In this document: positions 8,165-27,453 of the stretch, piece by piece | Numbering within the stretch: position 1 is the stretch's first letter | How the letters are laid out: each line of letters opens with the position of its first letter | From: Chryseobacterium sp. LJ668 | GTDB lineage: Bacteria > Bacteroidota > Bacteroidia > Flavobacteriales > Weeksellaceae | Direction of reading: 5' to 3' | Length of the DNA: 64,000 nt | Assembly: GCF_019613955.1 (NCBI RefSeq) | Contig: NZ_CP080443.1 | Location: forward strand, 3,271,001-3,335,000 | Position numbers and translations under genes: made by a program | Notes under the pieces: generated by a model | Database searches by the model: none | Told to the model about the DNA's origin: nothing | The model's input: only the letters and a program-made list of their open reading frames with translations

Positions 8165-8217
8165 CTGAAAAAATAATCATTTAAATAAGAAGTATTAAAA
8201 TATCCGTCACGTTGAAC

Positions 8218-9348
8218 ATGAAGAAATTAATCTCAACCCTTATCGCAGGTACCGCGGCAACAGCTGCCGTTATTTATTTTTCTGGTTACGGATATATATT
8301 TAAAGCTCTTGCCATCAATTTAAAAAAAGGTCCTTTTACGCCTTCTACTGATGATGAGGAAAAGTTCCCATCCCGAGAAGTTCCCAATTTACATCCTCAG
8401 CCATGGGAAAAAGATGCCTCTTATAACAGCATTATCCTTAACGAAAATATTCTTAAAGATCTTACAAAAACACGGGCATCATCTCTTGTCATCATACGCG
8501 ACAACAAATTGCTTTATGAGCAATACTGGAAAGATCACGATGCATCTTCATTGATGAATTCTTTTTCGATGGCTAAAGGTATTTTAGCCATTTTAGTTGG
8601 CTGTGCTATTGACGATGGCTACCTGAAGTCTGAGGATCAGCTGGTATCATCTGTATTTCCTGTTTATAAGTCCAGCCATTTTGGGAAATTTCTTACTATC
8701 CGTCATCTGATGATGATGCAGGCTGGCTTAGACTGGAAGGAAGAATACCATCATCCTTTTGCACCCAACTCTAAACAGTATTTTGTTGATGATCTTGCAG
8801 AGCAGGCATTCAATCTTGAAATAAAAGAAATGCCGGGAGAAAAATATGAGTATCAAAGCGCAGCAGCCCAGCTTTTGGGTTTGGTTTTAAAAAAAGTAAT
8901 CGGCAGAGAACTTTCAACGTATCTTTCAGAAAAAATATGGCAGCCTCTGGGAATGGAATTTTCAGCTAAATGGAGCACCGATGAGAAAGGAATGGAAAAA
9001 GCATTTTGCTGTATTCATGCGACTCCCAGAGATTTTGCAAAAATTGGGCAGCTTATCATGCAAAGCGGTAGCTGGGAAGATAAACAGATTATCAGTAAAG
9101 AATATTGTCAAAGGCTGCTGGCTCCTACAGAACTCAATGATGCGTTTTGCTATACCATTTGGGCAGATGATGAGAGCGATATAAAATACCGGTTTTTTTA
9201 CGGATTTCTGGGTCAGTTTATCATTATGATTCCCGAAAAGAAAATGGTAATTGTAAAAACGGGATTTTATAACAGGCTGGATGTTGATAAAAAACAACGG
9301 CCACTTCAGGTGAAGCTACTTACAGATGAATTGTGCAAGATCTGTTAA
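8218..9348 (+). CDS. Serine hydrolase of the beta-lactamase/penicillin-binding family
   Basis: A 376-residue class C-type serine hydrolase anchored by an N-terminal hydrophobic helix (KKLISTLIAGTAATAAVIYF). The nucleophile lies in the SxxK box as SMAK, within NSFSMAKGI. The second box is YQSAAAQ, where YxN is usual, so the third position is Ser rather than Asn. I start at the ATG at 8218 rather than the TTG two codons earlier because the ATG begins a normal signal/anchor sequence. The family includes esterases, D-aminopeptidases and 6-aminohexanoate-dimer hydrolases, so a substrate cannot be assigned. It probably acts in the periplasm. Confidence 0.85.
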   Translation: MKKLISTLIAGTAATAAVIYFSGYGYIFKALAINLKKGPFTPSTDDEEKFPSREVPNLHPQPWEKDASYNSIILNENILKDLTKTRASSLVIIRDNKLLYEQYWKDHDASSLMNSFSMAKGILAILVGCAIDDGYLKSEDQLVSSVFPVYKSSHFGKFLTIRHLMMMQAGLDWKEEYHHPFAPNSKQYFVDDLAEQAFNLEIKEMPGEKYEYQSAAAQLLGLVLKKVIGRELSTYLSEKIWQPLGMEFSAKWSTDEKGMEKAFCCIHATPRDFAKIGQLIMQSGSWEDKQIISKEYCQRLLAPTELNDAFCYTIWADDESDIKYRFFYGFLGQFIIMIPEKKMVIVKTGFYNRLDVDKKQRPLQVKLLTDELCKIC

Positions 9349-14888: not shown

Positions 14889-17800
14889 ATGAAAAAAATA
14901 AATATTCTTTTTTATGCTAAATCATTAGCATTCATATTCCTGTTCTTTTCCTTTTCTGTTGTATATGCACAGGACACCGACGGAGACGGGACCGCAAACT
15001 CAATAGATCTTGATGACGATAATGACGGAATTTTAGATGCTATAGAATGTACAGCAAGTAATACGGTAACCAACCCTTCTTTTACAGTGAATGCTGCAGG
15101 ATGGACATCAAACCCTTCTTGGATTGCTAATGCAGGAAATGTAAGCATTACCGATAATAATGTAACCAATGTAGATATATCGCAGTCATTAAGCAATCTC
15201 GCCAATACAAATAGCGTTATTCCGTTAACGGTGACGATAGGTGCGCAGGATGGAAGTAATGCGGCAGGTTCTACAGGAAGTCTGCAGATATTATTAAACA
15301 ATACCCTTTTTGCCACCATCAGTAACAGTACAACAAGAACTGTTGGAGTTAATAATGTTACCATTACCCTTTCGAATGGCGCAACCTCTACATTTACAGC
15401 TTTTAGTACAGCAAGTGTTACGGGTTTCACACGGCAGACCTTTACCCTGAATATTCCCAATACTGGTATTCCAAGTACTTCCACATTAGTATTCAGGGCA
15501 ACTATTGCCTTGGATGACTGGTTGCTAGATGATGTTTCGGTACCGGTATTTTCCTGTGACACAGATGGGGATACTGTTTTTAACCATTTAGATTTCGATT
15601 CTGATGGCGACGGATGCTTTGATGCCATTGAAGGTGACGAAAATGTGCTGCCTTCACAGTTAAATGCCAACGGAAGCATTAATACTACAGCTACGGGAGG
15701 CATAGGAACCACTGCAGGAACCAATAACGGGGTTCCTAATCTTGTGAATTCCGGCGGAAGCGCAGATATAGGCGGCGATATTGGACAGGGATTTGCCGAT
15801 TCGCAAAACAGTACCGTAAATACCCAGTGTATTGACACAGATTCAGATGGAATTCCAAATAACATTGATCTAGATGATGACAACGATGGGATATCAGATA
15901 GTAATGAAGGCTTCTGTATCTCACAGGGGGTATACTCTTTTGATAGCACGGCAACATTAGCCGCTGCATCTTTCGGAGCTAATGGCGGTACTTTTAATCT
16001 GGTATATAATCTTACATCAGGTACAGCAGTAACTGCCTTGGGAAATAGTTTTACAGTTCCTTTTACGTATTCAGATTTAAACAATGCAGTGAATGCACAA
16101 AACCATATCTGGAACTCATTCGGTACCAATTCTACTTCTTTTCTTATTATTCCCGGTACCACTTCTTTATACACCGGCTTACCGGCGACTAATACTACGA
16201 ATGAAGACACCACTGGGGCTTCACCTGCTACAGCAGACGGCAATTTCAGATTCCTTTTGAGATCCGGCGCAATTTTACAGCTGGGAACTTTTACCACTAC
16301 CATAGGGAATTTGCCGGTGGTAACGGGCGTGTCTACCTACAGCAGCAATACTTCTCTGGCTTTATTTTCAGGCTTTAATGCAACTTCCGTAGGAGGAAGT
16401 ATATTTAGTGACGGGTACTATGCCAAAATGCAGCTTCAAAATACGGCAAATCCTGTAAATACAGGAAATACATTATCGTTGCCGGTAAATTATGGCAGCA
16501 ATTATGTATGGGATTATACAGCCTTTACAGCCAATGCAGGTACAGGAGCGAATGCTGTAGGAAGAGGCCTTGTTACTATAAACCAGAATACCGTAACATA
16601 CTGTAATCACAGGGATACTGATAATGACGGAACACCGGATTATCTTGACCTTGATTCTGACGGTGATGGATGTTTTGATGCCCTTGAAGGAGACGAAAAT
16701 GTTCTTACTGCACAATTGAATCCTAACGGAAGCATTTCAGGAGCAGTTGACACTCAGGGTGTGCCTGTGCGTGTAAACACTGGTGGATCTGCAGATATAG
16801 GATCAGATCAGGGACAAGGTGCAGGCACTTCAACCAATTCATTGAATCAGGATGCACAGTGTATATCGGCAGTCGGATGTACCAATACGATGTACCTTTC
16901 TCAAACGAATATTTTATACAGTATTGGGACTGCAACAAATCCTTTTACCTATACCCAGATTGGATCACCTGCGGCAGTAAACTATAATGCGATAGGGGTT
17001 AACCCACTCGATGGGTTTATATATGGATTGATTCCTAATACCACTACGCTTATCCGTGTGAATGCAGATGGTACTACTAACACACTTGGGAATGTAACAG
17101 GGTTGCCGGGTGGGGCATCAACCTATATTACCGGAGAAATAGACAACTTAGGTAATTATTATGTGAAAGCCGGCGGACTCAATAATGAACTGTATAGGAT
17201 CAATCTTTCTACCTTAACGGCTACATTGATTACGCTTTCAACAAGTGTTAATCTCTCGGATTTTGCATACAGTGTAAGTACAGGACTTTTATATGGTGTC
17301 AATACTTCAAACGGTCAATTGGTTTCAATTAATCCGAATACCGGTCTGGTTACCGGAATAGGAATTACACCCGGCGGCCAGAATTTTGGGGCTATGTTTG
17401 CCTCCAGTACCGGTGAGATCTATGGTGCTAACAATGTGGGTGGATTTTATCAGTTTAATATCATTACCGGGAGTAGAGTGTTGCTTTCCAATGCACCTGC
17501 GAGTAACGTAAATGACGGGGCACATTGTGTGACTGCTCCGATAGCTTTTGGAACCGATCTTTCGGTAACCAAAACAGATGGGGTGACCACCTATGCATCC
17601 GGTACAGTCACTACGTACACGGTAACTGTGAGTAACAGCGGCCCGACCGGAGCTCAGGGAGCCACGGTTTCAGATCCGGTTCCTGCAGGAATTCCTGCGG
17701 CCAATGTGAGCTATACTGCAGCAGTATCCGGTGGGGCAACCACCTCGGTATCGGGTACGCAGACCGGTGCCATCAACGATGTGATCAATATTCCGATTGG

Positions 17801-18266
17801 TGGTACAGTAACCTACACGGTTTCGGTAAGTATTCCTTTTGCGTATACAGGAAATCTTGTGAATACGGCAACCGTTACCGCTCCTTCCAACATCACCGAT
17901 AGCAACACTGCAAATAATACGGCAACGGATACCGATACTCAGGCGGTATGCTACAGACCTGTTGTAACGACTGGTACTATATTAAATACCAATCACGGAA
18001 TCACTTCTCTGAACAGAGCAGGAAGCGATGCAGCGTCAGGTAACTGGCCAATGGTAAGAAAAGGAGCATGGACTGTTTTAGAATCAAAAACAAAAGGTTT
18101 TGTATTGAATAGATTAACGACAGCTCAGATTGCAGCGATCCCTGCAGGAAATTTAGTTGAAGGTATGATGGTTTATAATATTACATTAGATTGTCTGCAG
18201 GTTAATACCACAGGAACTCCGGCAGGATGGTCTTGTTTTAATAATCAGACATGTCCGTCGAACTAG
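14889..18266 (+). CDS. Large secreted surface protein with TSP3-type calcium repeats and a DUF11 domain
   Basis: A 1125-residue exported protein. The signal peptide ends at VVYAQ. Thrombospondin type-3-like calcium motifs appear as DTDGDGTANSIDLDDDNDGI, DTDSDGIPNNIDLDDDNDGI and DTDNDGTPDYLDLDSDGDG. A module of about 85 residues around DSDGDGCFDAxEGDENVL is present twice (coding about 15553-15832 and 16611-16863). A beta-propeller-like stretch follows (about residues 660-890), then one DUF11 domain (about 895-1025, DLSVTKTDGVTTY to NTATDTD). The C-terminus has the KGFVLNRLT...GMMVYNIT module shared with the next two surface proteins. No standard T9SS C-terminal domain is evident. Its role is probably adhesion or matrix building. 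Confidence 0.82.
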   Translation: MKKINILFYAKSLAFIFLFFSFSVVYAQDTDGDGTANSIDLDDDNDGILDAIECTASNTVTNPSFTVNAAGWTSNPSWIANAGNVSITDNNVTNVDISQSLSNLANTNSVIPLTVTIGAQDGSNAAGSTGSLQILLNNTLFATISNSTTRTVGVNNVTITLSNGATSTFTAFSTASVTGFTRQTFTLNIPNTGIPSTSTLVFRATIALDDWLLDDVSVPVFSCDTDGDTVFNHLDFDSDGDGCFDAIEGDENVLPSQLNANGSINTTATGGIGTTAGTNNGVPNLVNSGGSADIGGDIGQGFADSQNSTVNTQCIDTDSDGIPNNIDLDDDNDGISDSNEGFCISQGVYSFDSTATLAAASFGANGGTFNLVYNLTSGTAVTALGNSFTVPFTYSDLNNAVNAQNHIWNSFGTNSTSFLIIPGTTSLYTGLPATNTTNEDTTGASPATADGNFRFLLRSGAILQLGTFTTTIGNLPVVTGVSTYSSNTSLALFSGFNATSVGGSIFSDGYYAKMQLQNTANPVNTGNTLSLPVNYGSNYVWDYTAFTANAGTGANAVGRGLVTINQNTVTYCNHRDTDNDGTPDYLDLDSDGDGCFDALEGDENVLTAQLNPNGSISGAVDTQGVPVRVNTGGSADIGSDQGQGAGTSTNSLNQDAQCISAVGCTNTMYLSQTNILYSIGTATNPFTYTQIGSPAAVNYNAIGVNPLDGFIYGLIPNTTTLIRVNADGTTNTLGNVTGLPGGASTYITGEIDNLGNYYVKAGGLNNELYRINLSTLTATLITLSTSVNLSDFAYSVSTGLLYGVNTSNGQLVSINPNTGLVTGIGITPGGQNFGAMFASSTGEIYGANNVGGFYQFNIITGSRVLLSNAPASNVNDGAHCVTAPIAFGTDLSVTKTDGVTTYASGTVTTYTVTVSNSGPTGAQGATVSDPVPAGIPAANVSYTAAVSGGATTSVSGTQTGAINDVINIPIGGTVTYTVSVSIPFAYTGNLVNTATVTAPSNITDSNTANNTATDTDTQAVCYRPVVTTGTILNTNHGITSLNRAGSDAASGNWPMVRKGAWTVLESKTKGFVLNRLTTAQIAAIPAGNLVEGMMVYNITLDCLQVNTTGTPAGWSCFNNQTCPSN

Positions 18267-21004: not shown

Positions 21005-23797
21005 TTAATTACCAAATTTTTTTGTATTGATTTTCTTTTCCTTTACTTTGATGATAAAATCAGGAACTGTTGATATTTTCCCTGCTGTAATCTGGATTTT
21101 CTGAGTTTTAATTTCTGAGAAAGTATTATTGGGAAGTGACGATTCGCTCAGAACGACTGTGTAATCTCCGGTCGGAAGAAAAGAGCTGAAATTACCTTCA
21201 TCGTCCGTAAATATTTTCTGCACGGGCTGATCATCTTTTAAAATACTGAAGGTAATGCCAGAGCCTCTTCGCTCAAAATCAACTGCAGTTTTTACATTAT
21301 AATCGAATGAAACCTTCCCTTTTAGAGAACCATTTTGATGAAGAGGTATCAAAAGATCATGAACATAGCCGTCTACATTAAATTCAGCTTCGTCATAGTA
21401 CCACCCTTGCTGGATCAACTGTTTCAGATTATATTTTCCAAAAGGAACGCCTTTATATGATGCTTCACCAAATTTATTGGTCTGCAATGCGACATTATTG
21501 ATAGTGAGAATATAATCTGCGGCAGGCTCTTCATTTTCATCATAGATATTGTTGCCATTGGTATCGTAAAAAGCATATGCTTTAATATTAGATTTTTTAG
21601 AAGAGTTTAAAACATTTTTACGGAGATTTAAACTAACGCCAACTTCAAATGTCATAATGCTGCTATTAACAGCTCCTGAAGAATAGTTATACCAAGATGA
21701 ATTTAAAAATGCACTAAAATTTTTTCCGCTATATTTTGAATTGATAAAAGCAGATGGCGACTTGCCATAGACTGCATCATCAATATAGGATACTCCGGTG
21801 CTGAAAATAATTTTATCTTTAAAAAAGCTGTCATTATAAAACAGAGAGAAAGTCATCTTTCTGTATTCTTCCGTTCCTATTAATGTTGAAAATGCATATT
21901 CGGACAAGTAATAGCTCCCTGACTGAAAAATAGTATTGATATTGAATTTTTTGAAGCTGTAATTACCACTTAATTTCATCTGAAACTGCTTAGTTTCAGA
22001 TGATGGGTATTTGACCAGTCCTGTCTCTATACCTACTATCAGAGTTTGCCTAGAAGGACTATTGACCCAGGATATCTGCTCAATTATACGATGAGCTGTC
22101 ATACGTCTGACATCCTGATCGTTCCAGCCAGAAAACAGATTATTATAGCTGTTTGAACCTTCATTTTGATATTGATACAGTATATTGAATGTAAAATCTT
22201 TTACTTTAGGAAACCTGTTCCCGATCTCAAATCTTTTATTTTGCGACAGCTGAGCCCTGTCATAGAAGAAAAACTTTGGTGAGAAATCAGAAATACTGAT
22301 GTTTGCATGCAGACTCTGTTTTTTAATCTGAGTCGAAATGTTCTGCTGCAACAACAGACTTCCTCTTCTGTTTCCGGGATAGTAATCTGAACTGTAGAAA
22401 TAATTCCCGTTGAGATAAAACTGATCAATTTTCCCCGAATAATTAGTTTCAGCGGCCATAGAAGGCTTTACAGAAGTTTGAGATTCATACACACTTACTC
22501 CGCCGTTAAGCTTTGCATTGACTCTCCAGAATTCATTAAAGTCATAGTTGCCTTCAGTTCCCAAAGTGTGATGCTTCACCTTTTCGAACGGATCATGGCG
22601 GTAAATATAAGCGGCAGATAAATTCCGGGTACTGTTGTTAGACTGTAGAGTTCCTTTCGTAAAAAAGCCGTATCCGTTTTTTAGCCAGCCGTTCTTTTCG
22701 GTAAGATTAAAATTCTGATCTACGAAACCTACTTCCAGCTTCTGATTTTTCGAAAATGTATGAACGTACTCAGCACCTCTTCCAACAAGAGTCATATCCA
22801 AAAGCTTATTGATGCTTCCCACATTGTATTCGCTTTTTCCCTGTCTGAAAATAAGATTGGTATTGGTGACCAATGGATTTTGTTGGCTGTTTAGAATGGC
22901 GATATTTCCTCTTACAAATAGAGATCCTGCGGACAGATTAACTCCTCCGGAACCTGTTATCTGAAAAATATCTACTTCTTTTCCAACTTTTCTGTAGCTC
23001 GTGGTAATCTGGTTCTGATTTTCTTCTGAAAAATTATACAGATCAAGATTCTGGTATTTCTGAACACTTGATATATTCTGTACACTTATATTAGCAGAAC
23101 CAAACAGTTCTTTTTCAGGATTTCTGAAGCCCGTAATGCTAATCACAAAATTAGACTGTCTTGCTAAAGCTTTTGACGGAAGATAGGTAAAGGTAAATAC
23201 AGAATCTTTTTTAGCCTTGATGCTTGCATTCTGTTCAAAAAAAATATTGGGTTCTGACGGGTCCGGAAATTTGCAGACTACCGTAAGATCCTGAGTAACA
23301 TTTCCTGTATTTGAAACTTTCACTTTAACTGAAATGGGATCATCTGCTAAAGATCGATAATAAGAGGTCACAAGCGGACTGATCGTAAGACTGGAATCTA
23401 TATTGATGATATGCTGAATCTCTTTCTGAACCATTAAAGCTCCCGACTGGCTTAGAAGTCTGGTAACAATTACAGAAGTTCCTGCATCAGCAGCTTCATC
23501 AATCATCATTTTTACGGGTATATATCTGACTTCGTTTGGTCCTAAAGTGATCTGGAGATCTTCACCATTAATGTTTTTGAAACCTTTTGGGCATACAAAA
23601 TTCAATTTTCCCTGAAAAATTTCTGATTGTTGATTTTTGACAGTAATGACCAAATTGAGCAGCCTTGATTTTTGTGCTGATGCAATATTTTCAACATCTA
23701 AAATAATATTTGATTCAATTTTTTGTGCGCGAAAATTACTGCCCCCAAAAAGAAACAACATTATACTTAGAAAAAGCTTTAATTTGAAAAAACGCAT
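21005..23797 (-). CDS. Usher-like outer-membrane protein (beta-barrel with flanking Ig-like and carboxypeptidase-regulatory-like domains)
   Basis: A 930-residue protein with a signal peptide (LKLFLSIMLFLFGGSNFRAQ). Residues about 25-245 are two Ig-like domains. About 250-730 is a series of alternating amphipathic strands with many aromatic residues, as in an outer-membrane barrel. The tail holds an SdrD/carboxypeptidase-regulatory-like segment (AYAFYDTNGNNIYDENEEPA) and a second one near 860-905. Known PapC-type ushers also end in small beta domains of this sort, but I do not see the PapC N-terminal domain. The usher role comes from the operon: pilin, chaperone and adhesin precede it. It starts 9 bp after the adhesin gene ends. 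Confidence 0.6.
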   Translation of the reverse strand: MRFFKLKLFLSIMLFLFGGSNFRAQKIESNIILDVENIASAQKSRLLNLVITVKNQQSEIFQGKLNFVCPKGFKNINGEDLQITLGPNEVRYIPVKMMIDEAADAGTSVIVTRLLSQSGALMVQKEIQHIINIDSSLTISPLVTSYYRSLADDPISVKVKVSNTGNVTQDLTVVCKFPDPSEPNIFFEQNASIKAKKDSVFTFTYLPSKALARQSNFVISITGFRNPEKELFGSANISVQNISSVQKYQNLDLYNFSEENQNQITTSYRKVGKEVDIFQITGSGGVNLSAGSLFVRGNIAILNSQQNPLVTNTNLIFRQGKSEYNVGSINKLLDMTLVGRGAEYVHTFSKNQKLEVGFVDQNFNLTEKNGWLKNGYGFFTKGTLQSNNSTRNLSAAYIYRHDPFEKVKHHTLGTEGNYDFNEFWRVNAKLNGGVSVYESQTSVKPSMAAETNYSGKIDQFYLNGNYFYSSDYYPGNRRGSLLLQQNISTQIKKQSLHANISISDFSPKFFFYDRAQLSQNKRFEIGNRFPKVKDFTFNILYQYQNEGSNSYNNLFSGWNDQDVRRMTAHRIIEQISWVNSPSRQTLIVGIETGLVKYPSSETKQFQMKLSGNYSFKKFNINTIFQSGSYYLSEYAFSTLIGTEEYRKMTFSLFYNDSFFKDKIIFSTGVSYIDDAVYGKSPSAFINSKYSGKNFSAFLNSSWYNYSSGAVNSSIMTFEVGVSLNLRKNVLNSSKKSNIKAYAFYDTNGNNIYDENEEPAADYILTINNVALQTNKFGEASYKGVPFGKYNLKQLIQQGWYYDEAEFNVDGYVHDLLIPLHQNGSLKGKVSFDYNVKTAVDFERRGSGITFSILKDDQPVQKIFTDDEGNFSSFLPTGDYTVVLSESSLPNNTFSEIKTQKIQITAGKISTVPDFIIKVKEKKINTKKFGN

Positions 23798-23806
23798 TGA
23801 AAAATA

Positions 23807-24829
23807 TTATTGAGGCATAATTTCGTACTGAAGCGTTGTAGCATAATCTTCAGGCTTTGCATTGATCAGGCGTTCATCTTGCGGAGATGTAAAATATTTT
23901 ATATCGTAATTATAAGATGTATTTTGAGAACTGATAGCCTGAGCCAACGTTTGGCTCGACATATTTAAAGTGATAGGATGTACCGTCTGATTCGGATGAT
24001 CCAGAGGTGACAGCAACAAATGAATAACCCCTACAGGAATAGAAGTGCCCGTAGAAGAAATAAGATCGTTTTGCAGCGATCTTACTTTAATCTGAAAATT
24101 GCCTGTACTTGTTACCATCAATCCGTTTGAGTACGTAACAGAAGTTCCGTTAATATAATCCTGCATACTTTTAAACTCTAAAACACCATTCGCTGCATTC
24201 ATATTTATTTTGAGTGTCATCACATCGGCCGGTGGTGTTCCTGTAATATTACCGATCTGAAACTGAAACTGATGACTTATCTTCCCTATAACAGAGTTGT
24301 ACTGATCGTATGCTGTAAACTCAACAGGTGCCGTAAATTTTGTCCATGCCGGAAAGGCTGCGAGATATGAACCTCCTAAGGCCGTCATGGCATATTTCAA
24401 CTGCAGATTATAATAACCATTAGGCTTTGCAGGTACATTATACAGCGGCGCATTAGACTGAGGAATCAAAAAAACTTCACTATTTTCCTGAAGCATTACA
24501 TTCAAAGAAGCACCAATCTCAGCAATTGACGGTATTGGGTTGGGATATGACTGGCCGGTAGATGAGATCGGCTGAAAAGCTATTTTATTCGCAGGAATGA
24601 TATAGGCACCATCGTTAGACTGAATACTCTGCTTGAGTCTTACCGACAGCTTCCAGTAAGGTAAATTGATATTTCCATTTCCTGCAAATGTTACGGTATA
24701 GGCATCAGGGTTTGTTTCACCACTGTATGAACTGATCTGCATATACCCATTGACCCACGAGGTAAAGGAAACCTGTGCTTTTGCAGATATACATATGAAA
24801 ATAAATAGTAAAAAATGAAATTTACTCAT
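23807..24829 (-). CDS. Two-domain pilus adhesin-like protein
   Basis: A 340-residue exported protein (signal peptide ending SAKAQ). The N-terminal half (about 20-205) is a beta-rich domain of unknown ligand. The C-terminal half (about 210-340) aligns with the 173-residue pilin-like protein of the same operon: LEFKSMQDYINGT against LDYVTKDDYANGV, STGNFQIKVRS against STGGFQVKVKS, and the last strand YATTLQYEIMPQ against YTTELTYTIVSQ. This is the layout of a tip adhesin: a receptor-binding domain joined to a pilin domain. It overlaps the chaperone gene by 8 bp. Confidence 0.65.
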   Translation of the reverse strand: MSKFHFLLFIFICISAKAQVSFTSWVNGYMQISSYSGETNPDAYTVTFAGNGNINLPYWKLSVRLKQSIQSNDGAYIIPANKIAFQPISSTGQSYPNPIPSIAEIGASLNVMLQENSEVFLIPQSNAPLYNVPAKPNGYYNLQLKYAMTALGGSYLAAFPAWTKFTAPVEFTAYDQYNSVIGKISHQFQFQIGNITGTPPADVMTLKINMNAANGVLEFKSMQDYINGTSVTYSNGLMVTSTGNFQIKVRSLQNDLISSTGTSIPVGVIHLLLSPLDHPNQTVHPITLNMSSQTLAQAISSQNTSYNYDIKYFTSPQDERLINAKPEDYATTLQYEIMPQ

Positions 24830-25613
24830 AATTAAAATTTAATTCTCCAATCTCCAACGATGAAGGGTCTCCGTAGTCGATCATTACCGATGCATTGTAA
24901 GATCCTTTTTCAAGCACACTTCCCATCGGAATAGTGATTTTTCTGAGATCACCTGGTAAGGTATAAAAAACTATATCATCAACTGGAACTTTTTTCCCTG
25001 TACTGGTGTTGATGATTTCGGTTGAGATCTTTCCGTCTACCCAGATCGAAGACTGATTTTCAAATTGTAAAGCCAGATTGCTTTTAGCTTTATCAAATTT
25101 CAGATCTTTTATTTCGACTTTTTTGGTAACAGCCTCTGCAGATTTATGGAATATTTTAATACCCGAGCGAATACTTACCTTAATATTTGCACCTTTACTG
25201 TCTACATCATCCACAGGATTCATTTGGCTGATGTACAAAAGCGCGGTGTGCGAAGAAAGAGTATCTTTAGCAATAGCGGGAACCGTGATGGTAACATCCA
25301 GCTCCTTTCGTTCTCCAGGCGCCAGTGTAAAATAATTGTCACTTTTTTTTACAGAAATCCAGCTTGCACAAGAATTCTTCAATGTATTGGCAGCGTGCAT
25401 CATGTTTTCTCCGTATTGGTCATATTGCCAGTCACCAAGACTTACTGCAAGATCAAGAGAATTTTTTGTGCTTACGTTGGTTACCGTAATTTTTTGCGTA
25501 CTGCTGCTTCCTGATCCGGAGTCGAAATATACTCTGGGAGGCGAGACTGAGATACCGGTCTGAGCACTGATCTGGATCACTAAAAAATAAAACAGGAAAG
25601 TAATTTTATTCAT
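24822..25613 (-). CDS. PapD-like periplasmic pilus chaperone
   Basis: A 263-residue protein with a signal peptide (ending QISAQ). Two Ig-like domains follow in the pattern of PapD-family chaperones. The first opens GISVSPPRVYFD, has ITVTNVSTKNSLDLAVSLGDW and the strand KVSIRSGIKIFHKS, which corresponds to the chaperone G1 strand and its hinge. The second domain covers about 165-263. Such chaperones hold pilin subunits in the periplasm by donating a strand. It is longer than typical FimC/PapD (about 220) and lacks their exact motif set, so it belongs to a divergent branch. Confidence 0.7.
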   Translation of the reverse strand: MNKITFLFYFLVIQISAQTGISVSPPRVYFDSGSGSSSTQKITVTNVSTKNSLDLAVSLGDWQYDQYGENMMHAANTLKNSCASWISVKKSDNYFTLAPGERKELDVTITVPAIAKDTLSSHTALLYISQMNPVDDVDSKGANIKVSIRSGIKIFHKSAEAVTKKVEIKDLKFDKAKSNLALQFENQSSIWVDGKISTEIINTSTGKKVPVDDIVFYTLPGDLRKITIPMGSVLEKGSYNASVMIDYGDPSSLEIGELNFNYE

Positions 25614-25625
25614 TATAATTTTTTA

Positions 25626-25660
25626 AAATAAAAAAAGTGTCACAGTTTCTCATGACACTT
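25626..25660 (-). terminator. Intercistronic terminator between pilin and chaperone genes
   Basis: On the minus strand an 8-bp perfect stem (AAGTGTCA / TGACACTT) with a 10-nt loop is followed by a T-run. It lies in the 69-bp gap after the pilin gene. Because the downstream genes are tightly packed and have no evident promoter, it probably acts as a partial terminator that gives more pilin than the other parts. Confidence 0.7.
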
Positions 25661-25682
25661 ATTAATTTTGATCCGAAACCAA

Positions 25683-26204
25683 TTATTGGCTTACGATCGT
25701 ATAAGTCAATTCAGTAGTATATACTGTAGGGTCCTGACCTGCGATATAATTGTCTATATACGCATTAGCACCTGCACCCTTATACTCTATGTTGATTTTT
25801 TTGTTTACACCACCAGTTGTAGATGTTACCAAAGTAGCTTCATTAGCTGATAACTGTACGTTTTGTGCATACTGAGCTCCATTTACAGCCTCAGATCCTG
25901 CAGTAGCTTTAATCTGGATCGTGTTTGCCTGGATACTCTTACCACCATTTTGCATAGCTGCATTAGCACTTTTTACTTTCACCTGAAAACCTCCTGTACT
26001 GAATACGTTCAAATGATCCGCATTAACAGAAGTTACACCATTGGCATAGTCATCTTTTGTTACGTAATCAAGGTTTACGATTTTTTGAGCGTTATTTACC
26101 ACCAATGTTTGAATTGGCTTTAATCTAACGTTTAATGTTACATTTTGAGCATTAACTGTTGCGAACCCCAAGACAGCAAGGGAGCCCATCACGAATTGTT
26201 TCAT
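25683..26204 (-). CDS. Pilin-like major subunit
   Basis: A 173-residue exported protein with a signal peptide (MKQFVMGSLAVLGFATVNAQ). The mature N-terminus NVTLNVRLKPIQTLVVNN has the alternating hydrophobic pattern expected of a donor strand. The body is beta-rich with no Cys. The last strand YTTELTYTIVSQ recurs at the end of the adhesin-like protein. It is the first gene of the operon, followed by a terminator, and has its own promoter elements, as expected of the most abundant subunit. The family is not one I can name with certainty. Confidence 0.6.
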   Translation of the reverse strand: MKQFVMGSLAVLGFATVNAQNVTLNVRLKPIQTLVVNNAQKIVNLDYVTKDDYANGVTSVNADHLNVFSTGGFQVKVKSANAAMQNGGKSIQANTIQIKATAGSEAVNGAQYAQNVQLSANEATLVTSTTGGVNKKINIEYKGAGANAYIDNYIAGQDPTVYTTELTYTIVSQ

Positions 26205-26607: not shown

Positions 26608-27453
26608 CTAAATTGTAACAACTCTCAACTCAGACGGTTTTTTACCGGTATGTTTTTTTATAAAATTACTAAAGTTACCTTCATCACTAAATCCCATATC
26701 GTAAGAAATCTCAGAAATCGTCATATCTGAATATTTTATAGCTTTCTCACATTCAAGTTTAATTTTATCAATAATGATCTGCTTTGCCGATTTGCCATAA
26801 ACATATTCTGTCATTTCGGTAAGCCTTCTCGCAGATAATCTCAACTCATCTGCATAATAAGAAACTTTTTTTGCAGTTTTGAAATCGCGCTGAAGCAAAA
26901 TTTTAAATCTGTTCACATTTGAAACAAACATTAAGCGTTCGTCATTTTCACTATGGTGTTCTTCAACGTGCAAGTAGGCATCCAAAATCAAAGCTTCAAT
27001 TGCGTTATGTACCGCTGAAATATAAAGGCTTTCGTCTTTATCTTTAAATTTTGACAATCGCTCTACCAATATAATCTTATTGTAATCGGTATTGCCAAAA
27101 TAGGGAGCAATAAAAATTTCTGATTGAAAATTATAGAATACCTGAGAATTCAGGAAGAGACTGTCTTTAGATGACCGATCGTAGAAATCTGATGAAAATG
27201 CGATTACATAAATCTCTTTACGATAGGCATCACCGAATTCAACATCTTTCTGTGGGCCTATAAAAACAGCATTTCCCCCTTTTATATTGTAGTTGATTTG
27301 CCCTACGGTAAGCTCAAGATCTTCTGAAACCAAATATATATTGTAAAAATTTGAGGTATTAAACTTATTGCTGTAATTATTTCTTTTAATAATGTCGCTC
27401 ACCAAAGTGATACTAAAACCTATTTTTTCAAGTTGATTTGTTATTGTATACAT
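26608..27453 (-). CDS. AraC-family transcriptional regulator
   Basis: A 281-residue regulator. The C-terminal region (about 185-281) holds the two helix-turn-helix units of the AraC family, with ELRLSARRLTEMTEYVYGKS in the first and the family signature ISEISYDMGFSDEGNFSNFI followed by KKHTGKKPSELR in the second. The N-terminal 170 residues would form the sensing domain. It ends 404 bp before the pilin gene on the same strand and is the natural candidate to control that operon. A TAnnTTTG element at 27495-27502 may drive it. Confidence 0.88.
   Translation of the reverse strand: MYTITNQLEKIGFSITLVSDIIKRNNYSNKFNTSNFYNIYLVSEDLELTVGQINYNIKGGNAVFIGPQKDVEFGDAYRKEIYVIAFSSDFYDRSSKDSLFLNSQVFYNFQSEIFIAPYFGNTDYNKIILVERLSKFKDKDESLYISAVHNAIEALILDAYLHVEEHHSENDERLMFVSNVNRFKILLQRDFKTAKKVSYYADELRLSARRLTEMTEYVYGKSAKQIIIDKIKLECEKAIKYSDMTISEISYDMGFSDEGNFSNFIKKHTGKKPSELRVVTI

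Follow-up and report, generated by a model that had tools for sequence, protein, structure and literature searches.

Results

The operon and its conservation

The stretch examined here, a 64,000-nt window of the Chryseobacterium sp. LJ668 genome (the whole of the DNA analysed; all coordinates below are positions within it), carries four minus-strand genes that together make a candidate chaperone-usher-like system, listed here in the order in which they are read:

26204-25683, minus strand: gene for the major pilin-like subunit, 173 aa
25613-24822, minus strand: gene for a periplasmic PapD/WxLIP-like chaperone, 263 aa
24829-23807, minus strand: gene for a two-domain tip or adhesin-like subunit, 340 aa
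23797-21005, minus strand: gene for an usher-like outer-membrane protein (OMP), 930 aa

By spacing, the four genes constitute a predicted operon, because the chaperone gene shares 8 bases with the tip gene, and a gap of 9 bases separates the tip gene from the OMP gene. A sequence-only reading of this DNA had proposed these genes in this order, and each is an open reading frame on the minus strand where it had been placed. The arrangement does not appear by chance, as its order and strand recur in all 80 loci obtained by chaperone homology (the best 80 of 98 relatives found when named genomes were scanned with the chaperone alignment). Chaperone, tip and OMP genes follow one another on the same strand in every one of these loci, with two OMPs truncated by contig ends and that of L146 split into two overlapping open reading frames, and the 8-base overlap between chaperone and tip genes is retained in 70. 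Pilin genes stand before the chaperone in 77 of the 80 (one in 45 loci, two in 32); the 3 loci without a pilin all begin at a contig end. The window's own genome has a single chaperone match.

The 80 loci span 13 named Bacteroidota genera (Chryseobacterium, Flavobacterium, Niabella, Myroides, Paenimyroides, Mesonia, Arenibacter, Sinomicrobium, Dysgonomonas, Parabacteroides, Proteiniphilum, Fermentimonas and Leadbetterella), the closest named relatives being Chryseobacterium species. Alignment A1 used 49 of 52 homologues (P0001, P0016 and P0041 were excluded) and alignment A2 used 44 of the 120 listed, out of 213. When 296 genomes of the phylum were scanned, 24 had a match to the A1 profile, but in 19 of these the match is confined to residue 667 onward, mostly common tail domains, and for that reason we did not count those 19 as having the system. 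Chaperone-usher pili are described for Proteobacteria, and the archaic type also for Cyanobacteria and Deinococcus-Thermus, in an excerpt of PMC4654587; among the matches listed from the open-access literature there was no paper on a chaperone-usher-like system in Bacteroidota.

Pilin and tip subunits

The pilin-like subunit has the signal-like N-terminus that had been attributed to it, as read from the sequence alone. The C-terminal domain of the tip protein matches the pilin (E 2e-7, 27% identity), which bears out the earlier description of a two-domain adhesin-like protein. When 13 pilins are aligned with the pilin domains of 13 tips, an N-terminal extension (VTLNVRLKPIQ-like) is present in all of the pilins and in none of the tip domains, and a C-terminal strand, Y-x-T-x-L-x-Y-x-I, is common to both. 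The alternating pattern noticed at the start of the pilin also held up, as no other block of the protein alternates so strongly in 80 of the 104 pilins scored (those of 109 with a recognisable cleavage site, many of them close relatives and non-independent). Judged only by sequence, then, the pilins carry a candidate donor strand and the two-domain tip does not:

26109-26147, minus strand: pilin residues 20-32 (QNVTLNVRLKPIQ), the N-terminal extension and proposed donor strand, from alignment and alternation scoring
23810-24223, minus strand: tip residues 203-340, a pilin domain without the N-terminal extension, from alignment

A diverse pilin profile matched K-12 pilins over the last 20 residues only (E 7.8e-5; reversed control 0.45), and there was no WxL Pfam match in the pilins scanned. 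Run against PDB sequences, a pilin profile matched only the N-termini of Fab constructs, and these matches were rejected.

The chaperone

The AlphaFold2 (AF2) model of the chaperone (pLDDT 87.9) has a PapD-like tandem immunoglobulin (Ig) fold. A structure search with Foldseek and VIA places it, in agreement with the sequence-only reading, among the PapD-family chaperones (CsuC at E 5.8e-9) and, with better scores, with Gram-positive WxLIP. The classical carboxylate anchor pair is Arg8/Lys112 in PapD numbering; the archaic or alternate anchor of CsuC is Arg89, Arg174 and Tyr196. By alignment, Arg27 and Lys153 of the window chaperone correspond to the classical pair; all 80 family members have both, and among 17 divergent relatives the arginine is found in 5 and the lysine in 1. 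The model has strands at residues 143-146 and 149-157, and segment 143-155 aligns with the same stretch of FimC:

25149-25187, minus strand: chaperone residues 143-155 (NIKVSIRSGIKIF), proposed equivalent of strand G1 complementing the pilin, from model strands and the FimC alignment

One proline is invariant throughout the chaperone superfamily, according to an excerpt of PMC4654587. It counts against plain membership that the window chaperone has Asp92 there and that none of the 80 family members has the proline, in an alignment with a gap adjacent; the residue is present in 9 of the 17 divergent relatives and in 6 of 6 K-12 chaperones. Neither of the two WxLIP Pfam domains is properly matched in the window chaperone (PGBD at E 0.032, under the cut-off; HBD not at all). 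Neither an usher nor a PapD family came up when the window proteins were scanned with Pfam and NCBIfam, or in PDB sequence searches with the chaperone and with the OMP. A 45-member chaperone profile gave a single chance-level match in the PDB, to an engineered protein, and more diverse profiles were therefore needed.

The outer-membrane protein

Four regions of the OMP can be set out from its AF2 model (pLDDT 85.8):

23057-23710, minus strand: residues 30-247, two predicted N-terminal Ig-like domains where the usher N-terminal domain (NTD) would be, from the model strand pattern
21626-23011, minus strand: residues 263-724, barrel of 26 predicted strands, from DSSP of the model
22646-22741, minus strand: residues 353-384, strand pair 7-8 after strand 6, at the inferred usher plug position, from the model
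21044-21595, minus strand: residues 735-918, two C-terminal prealbumin-like domains, comparable to the usher C-terminal domains CTD1 and CTD2, from Pfam and profile alignment

A barrel followed by two C-terminal domains is the usher fold, and the structure search endorses the earlier call of an usher-like barrel: the top 11 Foldseek matches of the model are FimD or PapC, and in VIA PapC aligns over residues 260-917. The tail domains that had been noted are recovered as well, with SpaA above its cut-off and CarboxypepD_reg under its own, both on the second of the two. The sequence-only reading had remarked that the expected PapC N-terminal domain is lacking, and in the model that end of the protein is occupied by two domains whose strand pattern is Ig-like.

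Other results pull away from an usher. The TM-scores of the usher matches are low, MtrB is ranked first for the barrel by VIA, and the usher family PF00577 has no match in any OMP scanned, from the window or from relatives. PF00577 was likewise found in 0 of 148 genomes of the phylum, with a positive E. coli control, and NCBIfam named as usher none of five relatives' OMPs scanned. The classical usher is a 24-strand barrel with a plug domain. Against plain membership of that class, the DSSP list of our model counts 26 strands, and the model has no insert of plug size; strand pair 7-8 appears to be positionally equivalent to the plug site. The earlier suggestion of a distinct branch is supported.

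Profile comparisons with known ushers gave results that depend on the set of OMPs used. The window-family profile reached only E 0.041 against K-12 ushers, and a search of the PDB with a 50-member OMP profile brought up nothing of relevance. A pool of 18 diverse OMPs matched the usher (FimD) tail domains at E 2e-4, against control values of 0.15 for TonB receptors, 0.12 for LptD and 0.22 for reversed ushers. Four Chlorobium-type OMPs together with that of L067 matched ushers at E 1.3e-8 over 532 columns, plug region included, and in 2 of 4 profile comparisons the alignment of Chlorobium-type OMPs with ushers extends across both barrel and tail; the Chlorobium-type loci (L059-L064) were chosen from genomes with a PapD_N match. 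In a comparison covering 15 of the 31 loci L154-L184, plus-strand only, type 2 OMPs (5 sequences, including L183, which is part of a type 1 gene at the same place as L172) matched ushers at E 1.2e-6 over 592 columns, type 1 OMPs (10 sequences) at only E 0.016, and the two pooled at E 9.3e-5, in the tail. Type 2 OMPs in turn match the window family at E 1e-6, in the tail domains. Plug profiles match L059-L064 and, more weakly, L066 and L067, of which only L059, L066 and L067 are independent matches, as the profiles were built partly from genes of L060-L064; the window family and Bacteroidia-type loci gave no match to them (best E 0.053).

A conserved hairpin and upstream sequences

Two further features bear on expression of the operon:

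25635-25660, minus strand: hairpin and T-run between the pilin and chaperone genes, a proposed partial terminator, from a covarying stem
26608-27453, minus strand: AraC-family regulator upstream of the operon, HTH_18 E 1.7e-13

By a strict script, 45 of 77 loci have a hairpin of this kind, compared with 1.75% of base shuffles. Alignment A8 comprises the window and 34 of 66 listed loci, picked by eye without near-duplicates and omitting the distant loci L134, L139, L141, L142, L145, L146, L150 and L152; across these 35 sequences the 12-pair stem has compensatory (both-side) changes at 9 pairs, and 94.5% of cells are paired. None of 500 shuffles reaches any observed hairpin measure; related sequences can outdo shuffles of this kind, but slid controls also stay far lower, at 57.4% at best. 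Taken by itself, the window's stretch does not stand out in energy (z -1.62). The hairpin is likely to be a partial terminator that raises pilin over the machinery. A second helix downstream of it was dropped, with only 43.3% of cells paired.

An AraC-type gene precedes the pilin on the same strand in 48 of the 80 loci. Upstream of the window pilin lies a -7-like TAATTTTG, with no -33 element seen there, and the Bacteroidota promoter pattern is not enriched in the window (36 matches, 47.7 expected).

Related and neighbouring loci

Family A OMPs, the window's included (21008-21043), end in a conserved basic KEKKINxKKF-like tail, and a similar tail is found in the OMPs of a paralogous system B (L036, L037 and L065, from two genomes of the genus Chryseobacterium and one of the same order). 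System B has two or three pilins, a chaperone, an OMP and, last, a subunit of 477-478 aa, the final stretch of which matches the pilin in L036 and L037. A third, likewise paralogous system, C (L038-L041), has a WxLIP-like chaperone (by a Pfam scan of L040 only), an OMP of 911-917 aa and three small subunits, and by eye it adjoins genes resembling a SusD/TonB-type locus. The pilin position in the Chlorobium-type loci L059 and L062 is taken by DUF4402 proteins, which like the window pilin are encoded beside a homologous chaperone and OMP; the pilin of the window does not match DUF4402. No paper in the open-access literature searched names this uncharacterised family, and a role as pilins would give it a function.

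Single loci depart from the pattern: L045 has an OMP-like gene and no chaperone found within its 11 kb, the chaperone and OMP of L044 lie on opposite strands, and the chaperone of L064 is absent from the table of open reading frames, yet its end is visible upstream of the OMP. Elsewhere in the window, 14889-18266 (plus strand) encodes a large surface-type protein with DUF6923 and DUF11 domains, and 8212-9348 a serine beta-lactamase-family protein (PF00144, E 2.6e-23), a broad family for which we claim no resistance role.

Discussion

We consider it highly probable that this operon works like a chaperone-usher system and represents a distinct, plug-less Bacteroidota branch that uses donor-strand exchange, with polymerisation, secretion and adhesion all functions that we infer. 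It should not be filed as a plain chaperone-usher member, because the PF00577 match, the 24 strands with plug and the chaperone proline were each looked for and not found.

In such a system the pilin and tip, with their signal-like N-termini, would enter the periplasm by the general secretory route, each pilin domain being one strand short. The G1 region of the chaperone would supply the strand while Arg27 and Lys153, conserved within the modelled fold, would grip the C-terminus of the subunit, and the complex would then dock on the OMP, probably through its N-terminal Ig domains. The tip would be exported first, because its pilin domain can accept a strand but has no extension to donate, and the N-terminal extension of the next pilin would displace the chaperone strand in donor-strand exchange. 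The fibre would traverse the OMP barrel, while the chaperone-subunit complex would be handled by the two C-terminal domains. Because the usual plug is not seen, gating would have to work otherwise: an extra strand pair may sit in the plug's place, and an N-terminal Ig domain perhaps acts as the gate. Through the hairpin 3' of its gene, the pilin is probably given more mRNA than the machinery.

With the classical pathway (FimC/FimD, PapD/PapC) the operon shares a two-Ig chaperone with an aligned Arg/Lys pair, a two-domain tip, an extension on the pilin only, an OMP of barrel plus two C-terminal domains, and compactness. It departs from that pathway in an OMP with no usher Pfam match or plug insert, 26 predicted strands and two Ig-like domains instead of the usher NTD, in a chaperone without the superfamily proline and in a pilin without cysteine. 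The chaperone fold and a small pilin with a short extension, as in Csu, are also features of the archaic (sigma-type) pathway, from which the window system appears to differ in its classical-type anchor residues, placed by alignment, and differs in an OMP with no PF00577 match.

The alternative that survives best, though we think it unlikely, is a surface complex of WxL/WxLIP type, in which the chaperone is a permanent scaffold completing pilin and tip, the OMP only anchors or displays them and no polymer forms. WxLIP is the best match of the window chaperone in both fold and profile, and a chaperone paralogue encoded by a different Chryseobacterium-genus genome (L040:7176-7973) clears the Pfam cut-offs of both WxLIP domains. 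Yet the Gram-positive complexes have no outer membrane or usher, whereas here an usher-like OMP accompanies an N-terminal extension restricted to the pilin and an Arg/Lys pair conserved where classical chaperones have their anchor, and the hairpin would favour an excess of pilin.

It is more improbable still that the subunits are an adhesin set exported by other means, through type IX secretion or a general export pore, with the OMP an unrelated large barrel. Type IX secretion is the known Bacteroidota route (PMC3796261), and both the first place of MtrB for the barrel in VIA and the missing PF00577 match would suit such a reading. Against it, a Pfam scan found no type IX sorting domain in pilin or tip, Foldseek puts ushers first, and the OMP is constantly coupled with a PapD-like chaperone.

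Type V pilins (FimA, Mfa1) are lipoprotein precursors. A pilus of that type, which shares the phylum and a proposed donor-strand polymerisation, appears already disfavoured and scarcely credible here, as the window pilin has no cysteine and so no lipobox, and no Mfa/FimA Pfam match at E up to 1. An excerpt of PMC5954841 assigns to this type the pili of Porphyromonas gingivalis and its relatives among the Bacteroidia, with protease-cut precursors and neither chaperones nor ushers.

For the chaperone-usher-like branch that we prefer, we tentatively suggest that the Bacteroidota systems could be an evolutionary bridge, in which their chaperones unite the Gram-positive WxLIP family and the PapD family in one donor-strand chaperone superfamily and, within the phylum, the plug of the usher was lost and a strand pair took its place, leaving a plug-less barrel of 26 strands with N-terminal Ig domains as the gate. 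The origin of the donor-strand chaperones would then become a testable question. A natural plug-less usher, if that is what this OMP is, would allow the role of the plug to be tested, and the conserved operon, if our interpretation is true, would bring a further kind of pilus to this phylum, which many habitats hold in abundance.
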